Positions 3,563 to 60,181 of a DNA stretch of 64,000 nucleotides are shown one piece after another (the first letter of the stretch is position 1; each line of letters starts with the position of its first letter). The notes under the pieces were generated by a model. That model saw nothing but the letters and a program-made list of their open reading frames with translations. It did not search any database and was not told the DNA's origin. A program made the position numbers and the translations under genes. The stretch is from Parolsenella massiliensis (GTDB lineage: Bacteria > Actinomycetota > Coriobacteriia > Coriobacteriales > Atopobiaceae): assembly GCF_900143685.1 (NCBI RefSeq), contig NZ_LT671675.1:347111-411110 (forward strand). The letters are read 5' to 3'.

Positions 3563-5647
3563 ATGCAGTACACAATCGTTAGCGAAATACCGGGTCGCGT
3601 GCGCGTGCGGCTCGCCGGCAACGTGCCCGAGGCAGACGTCGAGCCGCTCCAGGCGGCCCTCGAGAAGTCGCCTGCCATCGCGAGCGCCCGCGTCTACCCG
3701 CGCATCGGTTCGGTGGCGCTTGCCTATGACGCCGCCGACGCCTCCGCGTGCGACGCCGCGCTGGCCTGGCTCGGCATGCTCGACGCCGCCGCCATCGACG
3801 AGGCCCGCGCGGGATGTGCGGGCGCGCTCGCGCCGCGCGCTGACAACCTGCTCATGGACATCGCCGAGCTCGTGGGCTTCCACTACATGCGCCGCTGGTT
3901 TTTGCCGGCGCCCATCCGCGCCGCCTGGACGCTGTGGGCCTACCGCAAGTTCCTGCTCGCGGGGCTGCGCTCGCTTGCCAACGGGCGCCTGGACGTCCCC
4001 GTGCTCGACGCCGCCGCCGTGGGCATCTCGTTCGTGAAGGGCGACTTCCTCACGGCCGGAAGCACGATGTTTCTGCTCAATATCGGCGAGGCGCTCGAGA
4101 GCTACACGAAGGCGCGCTCGCAGCACGAGCTCATCTACTCGCTGCTCGCGATGCCCGAGACGGCCCGTCGCATCGAGGACGGCGCCGAGGTGTGCGTGAG
4201 CGCCACCGAGCTTGCCGAGGGTGATCTCGTCGTGGTGCGCACCGGCATGCCCGTGTGCGTCGATGGCGTCGTGGAGCGCGGATGCGCCATGGTGAACCAG
4301 TCCGCGCTCACCGGTGAGCCGCTCGCCGTCGAGCGCGGCGTGGGCGACTCGGTCTATGCCGGCACCGCCTGCGAGGACGGCGAGATGTTCGTGCGCGTCA
4401 CGCACGGCGCCGGTGGCACGAAGCTCCGCTCGATTGTCTCGATGGTGGAGCAGTCCGAGGGTCTCAAGGGCCAGGCACAGGACCGCAGGGAGCGCTTGGC
4501 AGATGCCATCGTTCCCTGGAACTTCCTGCTTGCGGGCATCGTGGCGCTCACCACGCGCAGCCTCGTGAAGACGAGCGCGGCCCTCATGGTGGACTACTCG
4601 TGCGCCCTCAAGCTCACGAGCTCCATCTCGGTGCTCTCGGCCATGAGCCAAAGCGCCCGCGCCGGCTTCACCGTCAAGGGCTCGAGGCACTTCGAGGAGC
4701 TCGCCGCTGCCGACACCATCGTGCTCGACAAGACCGGCACGCTCACCGAGGCCATCCCGAACCTGGCCGGCGTCCTGGCCTTTGGCGACTGGCACAAGGA
4801 CGACGTCCTGCGCTTCTCGGCCTGCCTGGAGGAGCACTTCCCCCATCCCGTGGCGCGCGCCGTCGTTCGCGCGGCTCAGGAGCGCGGGCTTGAGCATCGC
4901 GAGCGCCATGCCGAGGTCGAGTACGTGGTGGCCCATGGCATCGCGAGCTCGCTCGAGGGCAAGCGCGTCGTCATTGGCTCGCGCCACTTCGTGGTCGAGG
5001 ACGAGGGCGTGTGCGTCTCCGCCGAGCAAGACCGTCTCATCGAGGGGCAGACGGCCGGCCTGTCCTCGCTCTACCTTGCCGTTGACGGCGAGCTCGTGGG
5101 CGTGCTGGCCATCGCCGACCCCATCAAGCCCAGCGTTCCCGCGGCCATCGCGAGCCTGCGAGAGCTTGGCTTCTCCCACATCGTGATGCTCACGGGCGAC
5201 AACGAGGTCGCTGCGGCTCGCATTGCCGCCCAAGCGGGCATCACGGAGTTCGAGGCGAACCTTTTGCCCGAGGACAAGCACGCCTACGTCGAGCGTCTGC
5301 GCGAGCAGGGGAGGCGCGTGGTCATGGTTGGCGACGGCGTGAACGACTCCCCGTCGCTCTCCACCGCCAACGTTGGCGTTGCCATGGGCAACGGCACGGC
5401 CATCGCCAAGGAGGTGGCCGACGTCACGCTCGTGCAGAGCGACATGGCCGCCCTCGTTGGTCTGCGCCGGCTGTCCTGCGAGCTCATGGACCGCATGAGC
5501 ACCACGTTCACGCAGGTCATCGGGTTCAACTCGGCGCTTCTTGCGCTGGGGATCGCAGGGGTGATCACCCCACAGATGTCGAGCCTGCTGCACAACTCGA
5601 GCACGGTGCTGTTCTCCATGAGGGACTCGCGCTCGTTTGACATGTAG
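3563..5647 (+). CDS. Heavy-metal-type P-type ATPase with non-canonical SCALKL transmembrane motif
   Basis: 694-residue P1B-like cation pump. Visible in order: an N-terminal metal-binding-like domain without a CxxC pair (IVSEIPGRVRVRL), membrane helices, the actuator motif SALTGEP, the phosphorylation motif DKTGT (Asp ~389), the P1B-specific HP dipeptide in FPHPVAR, TGDN and GDGVNDSPSL (Asp ~591). The membrane metal motif, CPC in copper or zinc pumps, reads YSCALKL with a single Cys (~347). Together with the DUF6110 partner this marks a distinct subclass, so the ion is not predictable. The ATG at 3563 is 8 bases after the DUF6110 stop. Its terminator has been split by an IS element. Confidence 0.9.
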   Translation: MQYTIVSEIPGRVRVRLAGNVPEADVEPLQAALEKSPAIASARVYPRIGSVALAYDAADASACDAALAWLGMLDAAAIDEARAGCAGALAPRADNLLMDIAELVGFHYMRRWFLPAPIRAAWTLWAYRKFLLAGLRSLANGRLDVPVLDAAAVGISFVKGDFLTAGSTMFLLNIGEALESYTKARSQHELIYSLLAMPETARRIEDGAEVCVSATELAEGDLVVVRTGMPVCVDGVVERGCAMVNQSALTGEPLAVERGVGDSVYAGTACEDGEMFVRVTHGAGGTKLRSIVSMVEQSEGLKGQAQDRRERLADAIVPWNFLLAGIVALTTRSLVKTSAALMVDYSCALKLTSSISVLSAMSQSARAGFTVKGSRHFEELAAADTIVLDKTGTLTEAIPNLAGVLAFGDWHKDDVLRFSACLEEHFPHPVARAVVRAAQERGLEHRERHAEVEYVVAHGIASSLEGKRVVIGSRHFVVEDEGVCVSAEQDRLIEGQTAGLSSLYLAVDGELVGVLAIADPIKPSVPAAIASLRELGFSHIVMLTGDNEVAAARIAAQAGITEFEANLLPEDKHAYVERLREQGRRVVMVGDGVNDSPSLSTANVGVAMGNGTAIAKEVADVTLVQSDMAALVGLRRLSCELMDRMSTTFTQVIGFNSALLALGIAGVITPQMSSLLHNSSTVLFSMRDSRSFDM

Positions 5648-6623: not shown

Positions 6624-7090
6624 AGGTAGGCGACCTCGGCCTCGAGCCTGCGGCAGCGTTCCTCGAGCTCCTCCTCGCGGCTCCTCGGCCCGGGCCCCGC
6701 GGCCTTCGGCCTGCCCCTGGGCTTCGGGCGCAGCGCCTCCGCGCCGCCCTCCCGGTAGAGCCTGCACCAGCGGTCGAGGGGAGACTTCGACATGATGCCG
6801 AACCTGGCCATCGCCGCCGGCCTTGGCATCCCGCGGTCGACGACGGCCGAGGCGGCGGCGACCCTCTGCTCGTACGTGTACCTGGCCTGCTTCCCGTCCA
6901 TGCGCAGCAGCACCTCGCTCCCGAACGCGCGGTATATCTCCTGCCATTTTCTCACGGCGGCAATCGGGGCCGGGAGGCTGGCGGCGACCGACCTGCAGCC
7001 CAGTCCAGAGGAGAAGAGCTCCGCGGCCCTCCTCCTCACCCCGACGTCGTATCTAAACCTGAGGTCCGCCCGCATGAGAAAGCCTCCCAT
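6584..7090 (-). CDS. IS3-family OrfA (helix-turn-helix), copy 1
   Basis: 168-residue DNA-binding half. A helix-turn-helix region (RRRAAELFSSGLGCRSVAA) is followed by a second HTH, a basic GRPKAAG linker and a C-terminal leucine-zipper-like coiled coil (EEELEERCRRLEAEVAYLKKL). OrfA stops just after the slippery A7, as expected for IS3 elements that make OrfA alone and the OrfAB fusion. Confidence 0.9.
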   Translation of the reverse strand: MGGFLMRADLRFRYDVGVRRRAAELFSSGLGCRSVAASLPAPIAAVRKWQEIYRAFGSEVLLRMDGKQARYTYEQRVAAASAVVDRGMPRPAAMARFGIMSKSPLDRWCRLYREGGAEALRPKPRGRPKAAGPGPRSREEELEERCRRLEAEVAYLKKLRALAERDGL

Positions 7091-7141
7091 TTCTCGTGTC
7101 CAAGAAATGGGAGGCAGTTCAGTTCGGGCGGCCCCGTTTTT

Positions 7142-12556: not shown

Positions 12557-12918
12557 ATGACCTCCATGGGTGTCATGGATAGGGTGCGTGCTCGATTGCA
12601 TGGCTTTGGAAAGCAGTATCCCACCTTAATAGGACAGAACTTGTGAAGGTAGTGGGTTTAAAAATAATAGATAGCAAACAAAAATTTAAATACACGCAGT
12701 TAGCACGTACTACGTTCAAAAACTCTCTCAGAGTTCATTAATTCTGCGTGGGGGGGGGTATCAATAGCGTGCTATGCTAGCTGAACATATCCTAAAGGCT
12801 GGCAATCGTCGTCAAGCGCGCGTTGCAGGTGCTGTTTGGGGCAAGAAGACGCAATCAGATGCCATGGACGGGCGGCCGTGAGGGCGCTCGGATGGCGAAG
12901 CCATACGGGGAGGTCGCC
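12557..12918. promoter_or_regulatory. Divergent promoter region with a G9 tract, upstream of loaP
   Basis: This region is AT-rich around 12640-12745, unlike its neighbours. It contains a run of nine G (12750-12758) and a -10-like TATGCT (12773-12778). With a normal 17-base spacer the -35 position would fall at 12750-12755, inside the G tract, so tract length could tune promoter activity. AACTCT/AGAGTT at ~12721-12735 forms a small hairpin. Promoters for both loaP and the DUF4012 gene are expected here. Confidence 0.5.
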
Positions 12919-13434
12919 ATGGGAGTCTACGTCTTGCAGGTGCCGGGCGGCCAGGAGAGGCGCGCGGAGGAGCTGGCGCAAAGGCTGCCCAAGGACGTGA
13001 TCTCCAGTTGCTTCATTCCCGTTCGCGAGGTCAAAAAGCGAAGGGGAGGGGAGTGGAAAATGGAACGGGAGCTGCTGTTCCCGGGATACCTGTTCGTGGA
13101 GACCAACGAGCCGGAGCTGGCATCTGAGAGGTTGCGCGAGCTGCCGTTGTTCATGCGCGTGCTCGCGGACGTTGGCGGCGAGTTCTTACCCCTCGGCGAT
13201 GACGAGACGTCTTGGATTCGCTCGCTCACCACGGAGCGTTCGCACGTGGTGGAGATGAGCGAGGGCGTCATCGAGGGAGGCAGGGTGATCGTGACGCAGG
13301 GCCCGCTCAAGGGGCGGGAGGCGTGGATTACAAAGGTCGATCGGCACAAGCGGCTGGCCTGGCTGGATATGCGGATGTTCGGCAGAACCAAGTCGATAAA
13401 GGTTGGCCTTGAGATTGTCTCGAAGCGAAGTTGA
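12919..13434 (+). CDS. loaP: NusG-family specialised antiterminator (LoaP-like)
   Basis: 171-residue NusG paralogue. The N-terminal NGN domain (VYVLQVPGGQERRAEELAQRL, then ELLFPGYLFVE) is followed by a KOW domain (VIVTQGPLKGREAWITKVD). LoaP proteins bind RNA polymerase, recruited by a leader RNA hairpin, and let it read through terminators in long polysaccharide or polyketide operons. Its place as first gene of a ~12-kb capsule operon fits this. The start is taken at ATG 12919 because GGGAGG precedes it; in-frame ATGs upstream lack a site. Housekeeping NusG is less likely because there is no secE/rplK context. A hairpin lies just downstream. Confidence 0.88.
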   Translation: MGVYVLQVPGGQERRAEELAQRLPKDVISSCFIPVREVKKRRGGEWKMERELLFPGYLFVETNEPELASERLRELPLFMRVLADVGGEFLPLGDDETSWIRSLTTERSHVVEMSEGVIEGGRVIVTQGPLKGREAWITKVDRHKRLAWLDMRMFGRTKSIKVGLEIVSKRS

Positions 13435-18680: not shown

Positions 18681-19178
18681 ATGGGTGTCGCCTACAGGAT
18701 TCTCGATGGCGCTTCCCGTGCCTACAATAAGCTGCTCCTACTGCCCGCGCTTCGACGCTCTTTTGCAGCATGTGGAGACAATGTAACGCTCGGTCGCCAC
18801 AGCGAGGTCGCCGGGGCGGGGAACATTTACATTGGCCACGACGTTTACCTGGGTCCTCGAACCACGTTGCTCACGACCAACGCGAAGATTCGCGTTGGTG
18901 ACTACGTCATGAGCGGGCCCAATCTGACAGTAATCACCGGTGACCATCGCATAGATATCCTCGACCGGCCCATGATGACGCTCGCCGACGAGGACAAACT
19001 CCCCGAGAACGACCAGGATGTCATCATCGGAGACGATGTATGGATGGGTAGTGGCGTGACGGTCCTCAAGGGCGTTTGCGTCTCCGACCACTGCGTGATT
19101 GCCGCCGGATCCGTTGTGACCAAGAACGTGGAGCCCGAGTATTCCATCTGGGGGGGGGGGTTCCTGCTCGCTGCCTAG
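18681..19178 (+). CDS. Left-handed beta-helix O-acyltransferase with frameshifting G11 tract at its end
   Basis: 165-residue hexapeptide-repeat acetyltransferase of the maltose/WbbJ type that would O-acetylate the polysaccharide. Repeats include NIYIGHDVYLGPRTTL and IGDDVWMGSGVTVLKGV; the catalytic His is in TGDHRID. It starts two bases after capG. The conserved C-terminus should read IWGGVPAR; here a run of 11 G gives IWGGGFLLAA and a premature TAG. With 10 G the text becomes IWGGVPARCLGSRLKG and stops at a TGA overlapping the next gene's ATG. The present frame is therefore shifted, by phase variation or by sequencing error. Confidence 0.88.
   Translation: MGVAYRILDGASRAYNKLLLLPALRRSFAACGDNVTLGRHSEVAGAGNIYIGHDVYLGPRTTLLTTNAKIRVGDYVMSGPNLTVITGDHRIDILDRPMMTLADEDKLPENDQDVIIGDDVWMGSGVTVLKGVCVSDHCVIAAGSVVTKNVEPEYSIWGGGFLLAA
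19150..19160 (+). repeat. G11 homopolymer in acyltransferase 3' end
   Basis: Eleven consecutive G inside the coding region. Removing one restores the conserved C-terminal motif and moves the stop to 19196-19198, overlapping the downstream start codon at 19195. Confidence 0.9.
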
Positions 19179-19194
19179 GCTCGCGGCTTAAAGG

Positions 19195-21303
19195 ATGATG
19201 ATGGTTTCAGCTCAAAAAATAGTACACGCGAAAGTTCTGATGGTCGGCCCCGATCTTTCCCTGCACGGCGGGATTGTATCCGTCGTGCAGGGTTATCTCG
19301 ATGGAGGCCTTCCCGAGGCATGTGATGCCTTCGAGTACCTGGGGACGGGGGTTGGCTACTCTAAGCTAGGAAAATCCTTCGCCTTCGCCCGTGCTCTTGC
19401 TCGTTATGCGAAAGCCATGCCCTCCTACGACATCGTTCACCTGCACATTAGCGCCCGTGGGTCTTACAAACGTAAGTCAATTATGGCCTGCATGGCACAT
19501 AAAGCAGGCAAGTGCGTGATCTTGCACGATCATGACGGGGAGTTCAAGAAGACCTTCGAAGAGAGCGATGACGCTTACCGCCGCAATGTGAGAGAGACCT
19601 TCGGCATCGCTGACCGCGTTGTAGTGCTCTCGGAAGAGTGGCGTGATTACTTCGCTGAAAACGTTTGCGACCCCGGGAAAATCGATGTCGTCCATAACGG
19701 CGTTAAGGTGCCGGCGAAGCCATGCTCACCTTGTTCGCGTCAAGACGTCCTGTTTTTAGGACGTCTTGACGCGCGCAAGAGCCCTGACGTGCTCTTGCGC
19801 GCGTCAAGGGAAGTCCTGGAGCGTTTTCCGGACACGAAAATCGTGTTCGGTGGTGACGGCGAGGTCGAAAAGAATAAGCAGCTCGCTGAGGAGCTCGGCA
19901 TTGCCGACCGATGCGAGTTCCACGGCTGGGTCACTGGCGATGAGCGTGAGGCCCTTTTCGAGCGCGCCGCTGTGTACTGCCTGCCTTCCAAGAACGAGGG
20001 GCTTCCCATGAGCGTGCTTGAGGCCATGGCGTACGGCATACCGACTGTGGCAACCGCCGTGGGAGGGGTGCCGCAGGTCATCGAGGACGGTGTGAACGGG
20101 TTTCTCGTTGATGTGGACGACGAGGCGACGCTTTCCGAGAGATTGGCTTCGCTACTCGCGAAATCTGAGTTGCGAGAAGAGCTTGGACGCAACGGCAGGG
20201 ATCAGATTGTTCGCAATTTCGGGCTCGATAGGACTGTCGCCCAGGTTGTCGATATCTACGGAGCGCTTATGCGCGGAAGGGGGGGGCATTCGGTGAGTAG
20301 CAGCAAGCCTTGGCTGTCGCTTGTCGTGCCCGCATACAACGCAGAGCGTTTTCTCGAGGAGTGCGTCTCGAGTTTCAGGCTCGCTGCGAACCCCGATGTC
20401 GAAGTCATTGTAGTCGATGACGGCTCGACCGATGGCACGCCTGGTGTATGCGATCGCCTTGCGTCTGAATCTGCGAACGTGAAGGTGATCCACCGTGATA
20501 ACGGTGGATCACCTTCAGCGCGCAACGCCGGTTGCTTGCGTGCTGAAGGTGATTGGGTCTGGTTTGTCGACTCCGACGACGTTATTGCGCCTTATGCGCT
20601 TGACGTTTTGAGGGAGCGTGCCCTTGCGACGAAGTGCGACGCCGTCCAGATTCAGTTCCTGAGGTTTTCGGACGGCGAGAAGCCGGCTTGGCCGGCTTCA
20701 ATGCCGCCCGAAAACCCCGTTGCCCTTTCCTCCGAGGAATATCTTCGCGAGATATACCGAGGCCGTGGGCAGCACTATATGTGGTCATTCCTACTGCGCG
20801 CGGACGCATTGCTCAGCAGGAATGACCACGCCACGCCCGAGTGCAGCAGGAATGAACACACCGGTTGGCCCTTCCGCGAGGATTTCTCCCTTTATGAGGA
20901 TGTTGTCTCGATGGAGGAGATACTCAGACGCTTCGACGGCATCGAGGTCCTCATGGGGCAATACTACGGCTATAGGCAGTCTGCTGGCTCAATGACGCAG
21001 AAGCCAAGCAACAAGGCGGCGGACAGCGGCCTTCGTGCGGTTCTCGAACTCTCTGCACATGACGACGCCGGCGACCCTAGGGGAAAGCTATGCCTTGAGA
21101 TCAGCCTCCTGTTCAATGCCTACAAACTCATCGAATGGAGCGGGCTCGAATCTGAGTCGCTGCGCAAACGGTACAAGGTCGAGATCTCCTCGCGCGTGAG
21201 GGAAGTCGGCGTTTCCCACCTGGGTCTCGACCGCTTTGGGAGGCTCGTCCTTATGCGGACGGGGCTCCTCGACTACTTTTTCAAGAGGAGGTATTGCCGA
21301 TGA
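19195..21303 (+). CDS. GT4-GT2 fused glycosyltransferase (fusion depends on a G8 tract)
   Basis: 702 residues. Residues 1-~360 form a GT-B family 4 transferase (VDVVHNGVKV, LFLGRLDARKSPDVLL, and the SKNEGLPMSVLEAMAYG donor motif). Residues ~367-702 form a GT-A family 2 transferase (LSLVVPAYNAERFLEECV, VIVVDDGSTDGT, WFVDSDD). They meet at RGRGGHSV, encoded by eight G (20279-20286). With seven G the GT4 part ends in GGIR and a TGA overlapping a GTG (20293) that would start a free GT2. The two were probably separate overlapping genes. The DNA contains several long perfect inverted repeats. Both domains would extend the repeat unit; sugars unknown. Confidence 0.9.
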   Translation: MMMVSAQKIVHAKVLMVGPDLSLHGGIVSVVQGYLDGGLPEACDAFEYLGTGVGYSKLGKSFAFARALARYAKAMPSYDIVHLHISARGSYKRKSIMACMAHKAGKCVILHDHDGEFKKTFEESDDAYRRNVRETFGIADRVVVLSEEWRDYFAENVCDPGKIDVVHNGVKVPAKPCSPCSRQDVLFLGRLDARKSPDVLLRASREVLERFPDTKIVFGGDGEVEKNKQLAEELGIADRCEFHGWVTGDEREALFERAAVYCLPSKNEGLPMSVLEAMAYGIPTVATAVGGVPQVIEDGVNGFLVDVDDEATLSERLASLLAKSELREELGRNGRDQIVRNFGLDRTVAQVVDIYGALMRGRGGHSVSSSKPWLSLVVPAYNAERFLEECVSSFRLAANPDVEVIVVDDGSTDGTPGVCDRLASESANVKVIHRDNGGSPSARNAGCLRAEGDWVWFVDSDDVIAPYALDVLRERALATKCDAVQIQFLRFSDGEKPAWPASMPPENPVALSSEEYLREIYRGRGQHYMWSFLLRADALLSRNDHATPECSRNEHTGWPFREDFSLYEDVVSMEEILRRFDGIEVLMGQYYGYRQSAGSMTQKPSNKAADSGLRAVLELSAHDDAGDPRGKLCLEISLLFNAYKLIEWSGLESESLRKRYKVEISSRVREVGVSHLGLDRFGRLVLMRTGLLDYFFKRRYCR
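20279..20286 (+). repeat. G8 homopolymer at GT4/GT2 junction
   Basis: Eight G between the two enzyme domains. One fewer G separates the domains into two genes overlapping by four bases (GTGA). Confidence 0.9.
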
Positions 21304-22538
21304 GCGGCTTTATCGCATCCGGGCATGACGATGCTTTTTCGAGGCGTCGCGTCGCGCGGGGCGGCCTTTCGTCCCTTCCCGTCCTGCCGATGATGGCGGC
21401 GCTGTTCTTCATCCTCACCTTTCTCATCAAGGCGCTCGTAGACGATGCCTTCACCAGGGGTGATATTTCCGCGGGCATTGCTTACACCAAGTATGTCACC
21501 GCGGCTATCGCTTGCTTGGCGGCGCTGGCATATGCCCTTAAGCACGGTGAGCGCGTGTTCATCAAGGAGTTCAACGCCCTTGCCTTCATCTTCATTATTT
21601 TCACGATGGTATCCGCTTTTCTGCAAGTGAAGACGGGGCACTTCTCCACCGGGGTGTTTGTTGAGCTCTTCAAGTTAGCCATCCCCATCTTCCTCGCATA
21701 CGCCGTGCTCAACGCCTTGACACCCCATGCGCTCTACCGTTGCATGGTGGCCGTCCTTCTCGTTTCCATTCTCGGCTACTTATTGAGCCTGTCCCACGAG
21801 GGAGTGGGGGTTTCTGAAATCCTTAAAGCCAGCTTCGAGGATTCAGACAGCGCTTCAGAATCTTCAACCTTTTCAGGAATTTTCCTTGTACTCACCTTCT
21901 ATTTCGCTTTCTTCAGGCATCAGAAGGTATGGCTGGCTCTCTCCGCCTTATTCTGCATTCTTACCTTTAAGAGGCTTGCTATCGTTGCAGTGATTTTCGC
22001 TCTCGCTGCCAGCTTTCTTGCACCGAGACTCATGTGGGTCAAGGTCTCCCATGGCGCCATTGTCGCCCTTAAAATTAGCACGCTCTTGTGTGCCGTCCTT
22101 TGGACCTGGTTACTGCTTCCCGATCAGCAGAACCTGTTTATCCAGTTGATCGGCGACACGCCGTCGCATTTCTCCATGGGCAGGAGCGATGTGCTTGGCT
22201 ATCTGTTGAGTTCGGGCTTCGAAAGTTATGGGTACGGCTCAGCCAACGAAGTTGCCAAGGCTGTCTTCGCTGCACCTTTCGAAATGGATCTGACCAAGAT
22301 TGCCCTCGAGCTCACCCCCCTTGTCATGGCTCTTTTCGTTTGGCTCTTTTGGGACGTCGCGGGTGACTCTCTATGGGGCGTCGTTATCATCGGTTATTTT
22401 ATGATCAACATGATCACCTCCGATTCGTTAACGTCTAACTTCTGCCTCACGCTCGCTTACATGACCTGCGGCCTTGTTACTCAGACGTTTGAGCGTAGCG
22501 GGAAAAATGTGCTGGAGATTTCTGATAATGCCTTCTAA
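21300..22538 (+). CDS. Wzy-like polysaccharide polymerase
   Basis: 412-residue integral membrane protein with roughly 10-12 hydrophobic helices, a hydrophilic loop near residues 170-190 (FEDSDSASESSTFSG) and a larger periplasmic-type loop near 285-345 (MGRSDVLGYLLSSGFESYGYGSANE). This topology and its place among transferases and a flippase fit an O-antigen polymerase; sequence conservation in this family is low, so the call rests on topology and context. ATG 21300 overlaps the previous TGA (ATGA) and has AGGAGG at 21282. Confidence 0.75.
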   Translation: MSGFIASGHDDAFSRRRVARGGLSSLPVLPMMAALFFILTFLIKALVDDAFTRGDISAGIAYTKYVTAAIACLAALAYALKHGERVFIKEFNALAFIFIIFTMVSAFLQVKTGHFSTGVFVELFKLAIPIFLAYAVLNALTPHALYRCMVAVLLVSILGYLLSLSHEGVGVSEILKASFEDSDSASESSTFSGIFLVLTFYFAFFRHQKVWLALSALFCILTFKRLAIVAVIFALAASFLAPRLMWVKVSHGAIVALKISTLLCAVLWTWLLLPDQQNLFIQLIGDTPSHFSMGRSDVLGYLLSSGFESYGYGSANEVAKAVFAAPFEMDLTKIALELTPLVMALFVWLFWDVAGDSLWGVVIIGYFMINMITSDSLTSNFCLTLAYMTCGLVTQTFERSGKNVLEISDNAF

Positions 22539-23577
22539 TGGAACGATTGCGATGGCTACGCCTGCTTCTGGCGTGACGATCACCGTATGCGTGCCCGTAT
22601 ACAACGTCGAGCGGTATCTTTGCGAGTGCCTAGACTCCATCTTCTCCCAGGACTACGCCGACTTCGATGTCGTCATGGTCGATGACGGTTCTACCGACGG
22701 CAGCGGCTCTATTTGCGATGAATACGCAGCGCGCTTTCCGCAGCGGGCCTTCGTTATCCATAAGGACAACGAAGGCCTGCTGCTCGCGCGCCGCAACGGC
22801 TTCGCGCGAGCAGCAGGCAACTACGTTATGTGCGTGGATTCGGACGACGCACTTGTTCCTGGGGCCCTCGCTTCTGTTGCTGCCGCGGTGGCGGAGACGG
22901 GCGCTGATGTTGTGCGCTTCGGTTTTACGCGGGAGAAGAGCGAGGCTGCACCTGTTGGGTCATCTATCTCTTTCAGATTCTATTCCGCCGAGGAGAAGCA
23001 TAAGATGCTACGCGCTCTGTGTCGCTCGACCTGTGGCTCGGAGAACCCGATGTGGTTCAAAGCTATCCGTCGGTCGTGTGTCGGAGCCGAAGTGGACTTC
23101 TCGGAATTCAAAGGTCTCACTTTTGCCGAGGACTTTCTGCAAACCCTTACCGTGTATGACCGCGCCCGGACATTCTGCTTCATCGACGCCTCCCTCTATT
23201 ACTATCGCCCGGGCTCCGGAATCACTCGCGCATATGATCCGCACTTCTACCGCGATGTTTGCCGCTGCCTCGATGTGGCCGAAGACTTCGCGCGCCGCTG
23301 GGAGCGCGAGTACGGCTGCAATGAACTTATGGCCGGTATCGCCGCTTGCAGGCTTGACTCCGGCGCACAATATGCGGAATGGATGGCTTCGCAGGGGGAT
23401 ACGGTGGGTCTTGATGACCTGCTCGCCTCGCGTGACTTTGCGCGTTGTCTTATGACACCGGGCACGGGAGAGTTGCTTCGATTTGACCGACGTCTGGTTC
23501 TGTGGGCATTGAGGCGGCGGTCCTTCCTGATTATAGCCGGCATCGCTAAGGCCAGAGCGGCTAAAGCGAGAAGATAG
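22528..23577 (+). CDS. Family 2 glycosyltransferase
   Basis: 349-residue GT-A enzyme: TVCVPVYNVERYLCECLDS, VVMVDDGSTDGSG, VIHKDNEGLLLARRNG and the metal-binding DSDD, then a variable acceptor domain and a basic C-terminus (AKARAAKARR) probably touching the membrane. ATG 22528 overlaps the polymerase end by 11 bases and has GGAGA upstream; ATG 22552 is an alternative. Two overlapping inverted repeats (14 bp with one mismatch, and a perfect 16 bp) lie at 22746-22818 over the HKDNEGLLLARRNG segment. Acceptor and sugar unknown. Confidence 0.9.
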   Translation: MPSNGTIAMATPASGVTITVCVPVYNVERYLCECLDSIFSQDYADFDVVMVDDGSTDGSGSICDEYAARFPQRAFVIHKDNEGLLLARRNGFARAAGNYVMCVDSDDALVPGALASVAAAVAETGADVVRFGFTREKSEAAPVGSSISFRFYSAEEKHKMLRALCRSTCGSENPMWFKAIRRSCVGAEVDFSEFKGLTFAEDFLQTLTVYDRARTFCFIDASLYYYRPGSGITRAYDPHFYRDVCRCLDVAEDFARRWEREYGCNELMAGIAACRLDSGAQYAEWMASQGDTVGLDDLLASRDFARCLMTPGTGELLRFDRRLVLWALRRRSFLIIAGIAKARAAKARR

Positions 23578-59600: not shown

Positions 59601-59674
59601 ATCGGTGCGATAGGGGCTGGACGAGTTCGGGGCCGTCTCCGTGTGAACTGCCTCCCATTTCTTGGACACGAGAA

Positions 59675-60181
59675 ATGGGAGGCTTTCTCATGCGGGCGGA
59701 CCTCAGGTTTAGATACGACGTCGGGGTGAGGAGGAGGGCCGCGGAGCTCTTCTCCTCTGGACTGGGCTGCAGGTCGGTCGCCGCCAGCCTCCCGGCCCCG
59801 ATTGCCGCCGTGAGAAAATGGCAGGAGATATACCGCGCGTTCGGGAGCGAGGTGCTGCTGCGCATGGACGGGAAGCAGGCCAGGTACACGTACGAGCAGA
59901 GGGTCGCCGCCGCCTCGGCCGTCGTCGACCGCGGGATGCCAAGGCCGGCGGCGATGGCCAGGTTCGGCATCATGTCGAAGTCTCCCCTCGACCGCTGGTG
60001 CAGGCTCTACCGGGAGGGCGGCGCGGAGGCGCTGCGCCCGAAGCCCAGGGGCAGGCCGAAGGCCGCGGGGCCCGGGCCGAGGAGCCGCGAGGAGGAGCTC
60101 GAGGAACGCTGCCGCAGGCTCGAGGCCGAGGTCGCCTACCTAAAAAAATTGCGCGCCCTGGCCGAGCGGGACGGGCTCTGA
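59675..60181 (+). CDS. IS3-family OrfA, copy 2
   Basis: 168 residues, amino-acid identical to the copy-1 OrfA at 6584-7090 as far as I can read. HTH domains plus a C-terminal leucine-zipper-like helix. The stop lies just after the A7 slippery sequence at 60142-60148, in the correct A_AAA_AAA phase for -1 shifting. Confidence 0.9.
   Translation: MGGFLMRADLRFRYDVGVRRRAAELFSSGLGCRSVAASLPAPIAAVRKWQEIYRAFGSEVLLRMDGKQARYTYEQRVAAASAVVDRGMPRPAAMARFGIMSKSPLDRWCRLYREGGAEALRPKPRGRPKAAGPGPRSREEELEERCRRLEAEVAYLKKLRALAERDGL

Follow-up and report, generated by a model that had tools for sequence, protein, structure and literature searches.

The window analysed here comprises 64,000 nucleotides (bases 347111-411110) of a 2.0 Mb genome in one contig, whose source shares its order with Collinsella and belongs to a different family. 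It contains a polysaccharide cluster that begins with a loaP-type antiterminator gene, followed by genes for a sugar transferase, a WecG-like transferase, nucleotide-sugar enzymes and a hexapeptide O-acetyltransferase (AcT), and then by GT4 and GT2 glycosyltransferase genes, a gene for a predicted membrane protein, a second GT2 gene and a gene for a further large predicted membrane protein. Apart from two G-tracts, namely the G8 at the GT4/GT2 junction within this cluster and a G11 in the AcT gene, the reading frames of the cluster are open and clean (Table 1). The true loaP start may be internal to the tabulated frame. About 60 bases upstream of that frame is a G9 tract, a candidate for an element of variable length within the promoter or leader region of the entire operon; scanning for promoters ahead of loaP turned up a single weak hit, and the G9 is not part of it.

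Table 1. Features of the polysaccharide cluster (window numbering)
Feature	Position	Strand	Basis or remark
G9 tract upstream of loaP	12750..12758	+	
loaP-type antiterminator gene, head of cluster	12823..13434	+	NCBIfam NF033641, 164.5 bits (cut-off 125)
AcT, hexapeptide-repeat O-acetyltransferase, tail out of frame	18681..19178	+	PF00132
G11 tract, 3' end of O-acetyltransferase gene	19150..19160	+	
GT4 gene in split (G7-like) frame, TGA 20294-20296	19195..20296	+	Domains; stand-alone orthologues
702-aa fused ORF of sequenced allele	19195..21303	+	
Shine-Dalgarno GAAGGGGG for GTG 20293, formed by G-tract	20276..20283	+	-11.9 kcal/mol
G8 tract, GT4/GT2 junction	20279..20286	+	
GT2 gene, putative native GTG start	20293..21303	+	PF00535; start fits stand-alone relatives
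Gene after GT2, predicted membrane protein, Wzy-like by position	21300..22538	+	ATGA overlap with GT2

Reading frames and translation start at the junction

In the sequenced allele the frame runs, as an earlier note on this DNA had read it, from GT4 through the G8 tract into GT2 for 702 residues; the GT4 domains make up its first half and the GT2 domain begins at residue 375. When the tract length was changed in silico, G5, G8 and G11 gave a GT4-GT2 fusion of 701-703 amino acids, G7 and G10 gave a GT4 of 366-367 amino acids that ends in ...GGIR, and G6 and G9 gave one of 367-368 amino acids that ends in ...AFGE a few codons beyond the GGIR stop. The same note's prediction that seven G would end GT4 in GGIR at a TGA overlapping GTG 20293 thus holds in silico; in these G7-like frames the GT4 stop and the GT2 start share GTGA 20293-20296, a 4-nt overlap that the G8 allele reads through. 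That this geometry matches the neighbouring genes is also correct, as an NTGA overlap of the same kind is found between GT2 and the next gene (ATGA 21300-21303) and, given an in-frame AcT tract, between AcT and GT4 (ATGA 19195-19198).

A one-base change in the junction tract alters the product, fused versus split, and neither enzyme is lost by it. In an AlphaFold model of the fusion (mean pLDDT 69.9, good for the GT4 half only, the GT2 half being mostly below 50 with a shallow alignment) the GT-B fold of GT4 is complete by residue 362, ahead of the tract, so no frame damages GT4, and residues 364-375 over the tract form a low-confidence stretch, a linker. Since GT4 and GT2 are complete in all three frames, slippage at the junction would change their tethering or coupling and would not turn an enzyme off.

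The G-run is also part of a strong Shine-Dalgarno sequence. GAAGGGGG, about 9 nt before GTG 20293, pairs with the 16S rRNA tail at -11.9 kcal/mol, a value that is unchanged from G6 to G12 and is -11.4 at G5, and this pairing is stronger than at the best 1% of random positions. The purine run in the last GT4 codons is most simply explained as a ribosome-binding site. Because the G-run itself forms this top-1% site, the fused frame would also allow GT2 to be made from an internal start, and GT2 need not depend on the frame; with so strong a Shine-Dalgarno, translation of GT2 is likely partly independent of that of GT4. The suggestion that the tract "decides" between one fused protein and two coupled genes is accordingly right for the frame outcome and too strong for the expression of GT2, whose start has its own Shine-Dalgarno.

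Relatives of GT4 and GT2 and the origin of the fusion

The six closest GT4 orthologues, 47-83% identical to that of the window, are all separate proteins (Collinsella 83, 79 and 62%; genome G364 about 60%; G013 59%; G130 47%), and a G-run at the GT4 end is absent from every full-length GT4 orthologue retrieved. An extra GT4 copy in the Collinsella locus L070 has the same kind of end, but it is internally broken by a 64-nt deletion. The two closest full-length GT2 relatives (G364, 42%, and G256, 41%), which are distant and do not have the junction in common with the window, are stand-alone proteins of 325 and 337 amino acids that begin near the position matching the GTG 20293 start; a search of 45 Collinsella genomes for GT2 gave zero matches at 1e-30. 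The closest syntenic locus, that of G364, has the order GT4, another acetyltransferase, GT2 and membrane protein, the last being a relative of the gene that comes after GT2 in the window. Neither the GT4 orthologue ends nor the G364 GT2 start has a G-run, so the slippery site is not conserved in these homologues, and the G-run before GT2 in G256 belongs in frame to an acetyltransferase gene. With the G364 gene order in mind we also considered whether G8 is a relic of a lost acetyltransferase 3' end; by eye its flanks show no resemblance to one.

No fused GT4-GT2 orthologue, and hence none with a conserved fusion that lacks a G tract at the junction, was found among the orthologues of either half. 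The stand-alone relatives with their own ends and starts, together with the matching overlap geometry, support the proposal of the earlier note that the split arrangement is native; this comparison shows the split to be the ancestral state and the fusion, seen once, to be derived. We note that AcT and GT4 (18681-20278) are 83-84% identical in protein sequence to those of Collinsella, a member of another family, and that neither had a match in a second genome of the window's own genus at the cut-offs used. This cassette was likely acquired by transfer.

The lengths of G-runs give some measure of how unusual the tract is. The window has 32 runs of five G, seven of six and none of seven, followed by runs of 8, 8, 9 and 11, and it has no C-run of seven or longer. 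Its four G-runs of at least 8 compare with 1.6 expected from a first-order Markov model, the GGGGGGG word count is not above that of shuffles, and real G-runs decay with length faster than the model. With one artefact region set aside, the genome has about 22 runs of at least 8, of which nine are 10-12 long, and long G-runs taken together are more frequent than the decay of the shorter ones would predict. The junction G8 by itself is within chance, at the short, uninformative end of that class. The artefact region (genome 1500673-1500950, positions 4673-4950 of locus L111) has G-runs of up to 24, a poly-T run and, built into the contig, a near-match to TCGTCGGCAGCGTCAGATGTGTATA, which we take to be a Nextera adapter-type transposon end, and it is likely an assembly artefact. 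It lies away from the G8 site, yet it is a reason for caution about a one-base error. A library poly-G artefact like that region is an unlikely explanation of G8 itself, as coding frames continue on both sides.

Searches of 397 genomes of the order and a scan of viral contigs with the junction sequence found no second allele of the junction. One allele does not distinguish a live switch from a one-base change that has become fixed or from an error of base calling; that the fusion is a slippage state is no more than possible, and a frame transition seen once could just as well be an indel that is fixed or an error of sequencing.

We think it probable that GT4 and GT2 are natively separate and have been joined in the sequenced genome by the one-base offset of the G8 tract, slippage being its presumed origin. 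Two complete polysaccharide-cluster glycosyltransferases would meet at the 4-nt GTGA overlap, where the purine-rich end of the GT4 gene doubles as the GT2 Shine-Dalgarno; G8 would be one base off G7 or G9, either of which separates the proteins, and GT4 would be read into GT2 through a linker of about ten residues. The expected products would be some GT4-GT2 fusion and some free GT2 from the internal start. That the tract changed by replication slippage is suggested by its sequence class and by the genome's excess of long G-runs. Since none of the three frames truncates either enzyme, any effect of the fusion is probably modest and would consist of tethering or of lost stop-restart coupling.

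It is rather unlikely that the cell in fact has G7 or G9 and no fusion, the G8 being an error of base calling or assembly. Homopolymers are error-prone, and a Nextera-like end with poly-G is embedded elsewhere in the contig; against this, the cluster genes are otherwise open and clean, and the homopolymers of the assembly, which contains sequence from a short-read library, were presumably not called from long reads alone. The fused state is also a singleton, and a survey of frame transitions regarded such single cases as probable indels or errors of sequencing (PMC3711429). We regard as unlikely true phase variation, in which high-rate slippage would give a population that mixes fused and separate GT4 and GT2, with different polysaccharide outcomes. 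The genome-wide excess of long G-runs and the length-variable tract in the adjacent AcT gene would agree with it, as would the 8G/9G switching of wlaN in Campylobacter (PMC7248181) and the fusion of two ORFs by a G9 tract in B. breve (PMC9187656), but no length variant of the junction was found, its G8 is short, either enzyme is intact in every frame and GT2 retains its own Shine-Dalgarno. Ribosomal or transcriptional slippage on G8, by which one allele would give both fused and separate proteins, is quite improbable: the tract is read GGG GGG in the GT4 frame and a shift either way reaches a stop within five codons, but no orthologue conserves the site. Least of all do we favour a native bifunctional enzyme, its fusion ancestral or selected, which we hold to be very improbable; chains with two glycosyltransferases do exist, among them the chondroitin and heparosan synthases, to which the GT2 half is partly similar, but the orthologues of either half are all separate proteins.

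Several known systems resemble the junction in part. In the sortase-dependent pilus genes bbr_0113a/b and bbr_1889a/b of B. breve UCC2003 the G-tract lengths were measured as mixtures, and a G9 fuses bbr_1889a and b (PMC9187656). There, as here, the host is a gut actinobacterium and the length of a G-run sets whether ribosomes that translate the first ORF go on into the second, but the B. breve ORFs are halves of one gene, the second without active initiation, whereas both enzymes of the window are complete, its GT2 has its own start and Shine-Dalgarno, and one allele is known. The Campylobacter jejuni lipooligosaccharide gene wlaN is likewise a glycosyltransferase gene with a G8 tract in which a one-base change shifts the frame, at a rate that rises about tenfold from 8G to 11G; in wlaN, however, 9G truncates and inactivates the enzyme (PMC7248181), and here no length truncates a catalytic domain. 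In G7-like frames the junction resembles the ATGA/GTGA coupled overlaps (PMC6728339), with a 4-nt stop/start and a Shine-Dalgarno inside the upstream gene, but the G8 allele reads through the overlap. It resembles the chondroitin and heparosan synthases (PDB 2z86, 8vh7) in having two glycosyltransferase domains in one chain; those fusions are fixed, whereas that of GT4 and GT2 was found in one genome only.

We consider it unlikely that the G-run acts as Shine-Dalgarno and frame switch at once, so that a gut bacterium flips two complete glycosyltransferases between tethered and free beside a phase-variable O-acetyltransferase in the same operon. If so, what varies in phase would be the architecture and stoichiometry of the enzymes and not an ON/OFF state, and a live junction tract would make variation act on how two enzymes join and not only on whether one is made.

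The O-acetyltransferase tract and other repeats

The earlier note missed the G11 tract upstream of the junction, which is longer than G8 and lies at the 3' end of the O-acetyltransferase gene; the best solved relative of AcT is maltose O-acetyltransferase. Orthologues of AcT end in SIWGG[V/I]PAR..., with WGG coded by T plus the G-run, and a G-run is found at this tail in all eight copies that are at least 71% identical to the window AcT (window included), with lengths of G7, G8, G9 and G11. The window G11 is out of frame and gives the tail GGGFLLAA (FLLAA in place of VPARCLGSRLKG), where G9 would give the conserved WGGVPAR. The tract is in frame as G9 in three Collinsella genomes (G187, G175 and G176) and in G123, of the window's own family, and as G8 in Collinsella G205. 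It is out of frame as G7 in Collinsella L067/G201 and as G9 in L070/G179, two loci with 95.5% identity across 3.8 kb in which G8 would be in frame. The WGG protein motif does not require a tract, since L154, a 50% relative, uses GGC GGA for these glycines and has no run. Other cluster acetyltransferases have a G-run at this motif as well, in frame in G256 (G9) and G130 (G8) and out of frame in G364 (G5). Thus the frame at the GG[VI]PA[RK] tract of O-acetyltransferases is kept in some genomes and lost in others, and the AcT tract varies in length among close relatives with both kinds of allele, the pattern by which a contingency locus is recognised. The comparative evidence that the AcT tract is such a locus is good, and loss of the conserved tail may change AcT activity. 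Of the tracts of the cluster, this is the one with real evidence of variability, and it is a better contingency candidate than the junction G8. The G-run at GG[VI]PA[RK] recurs across Coriobacteriales polysaccharide clusters (19150-19160 of the window, L067, L070, L147-L153, L063, L127 and L128).

Even without a live junction, the cluster points to poly-G contingency loci in Coriobacteriia polysaccharide clusters, of which a literature search found no description, and the O-acetyltransferase tract offers a cheap and direct target for tests of glycan variation in Collinsella and relatives. Further candidates for phase-variable loci in the genome are a G9 a few bases after TTGACA, possibly in a promoter spacer (1319000-1319008, L110), a G12 upstream of a surface-protein-like frame of more than 1000 codons (583457-583468, L103) and an intergenic G10 (801405-801414, L107).

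Three glycosyltransferase genes of the cluster contain near-perfect inverted repeats (19736-19808, 20480-20553, 20781-20829 and 22740-22818), most of them as adjacent pairs that cover conserved motifs, which are FLGRLDARKSPDVLLRAS for GT4 and HxDNxGxxxARxxG for both GT2s. Against synonymous-codon shuffles they give z values of -5.2, -3.8, -2.3 and -3.7 in coordinate order, and they make up the top seven of 379 segments from ten cluster genes. The DNA of the GT4 repeat is almost identical in Collinsella L067, although the flanks there are 75-80% identical; L069 (62% protein identity) retains it with changes that are paired, and in L070 the 64-nt deletion removes it. These repeats may be due to template switching, or may serve as RNA structures or recombination sites. 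A hairpin element, GAGCGCTGCAAATCGG... / ...GATTTGCAGCGCTC, is present in two copies with a G8 in the loop region (genome 689317-689324, L104, and 1966560-1966567, L118). A 34-nt hairpin, GCCTCCCATTTCT...AGAAATGGGAGGC, occurs at 7082-7115 and 59650-59683 of the window with opposite loop orientation, and is possibly a dispersed palindromic element.
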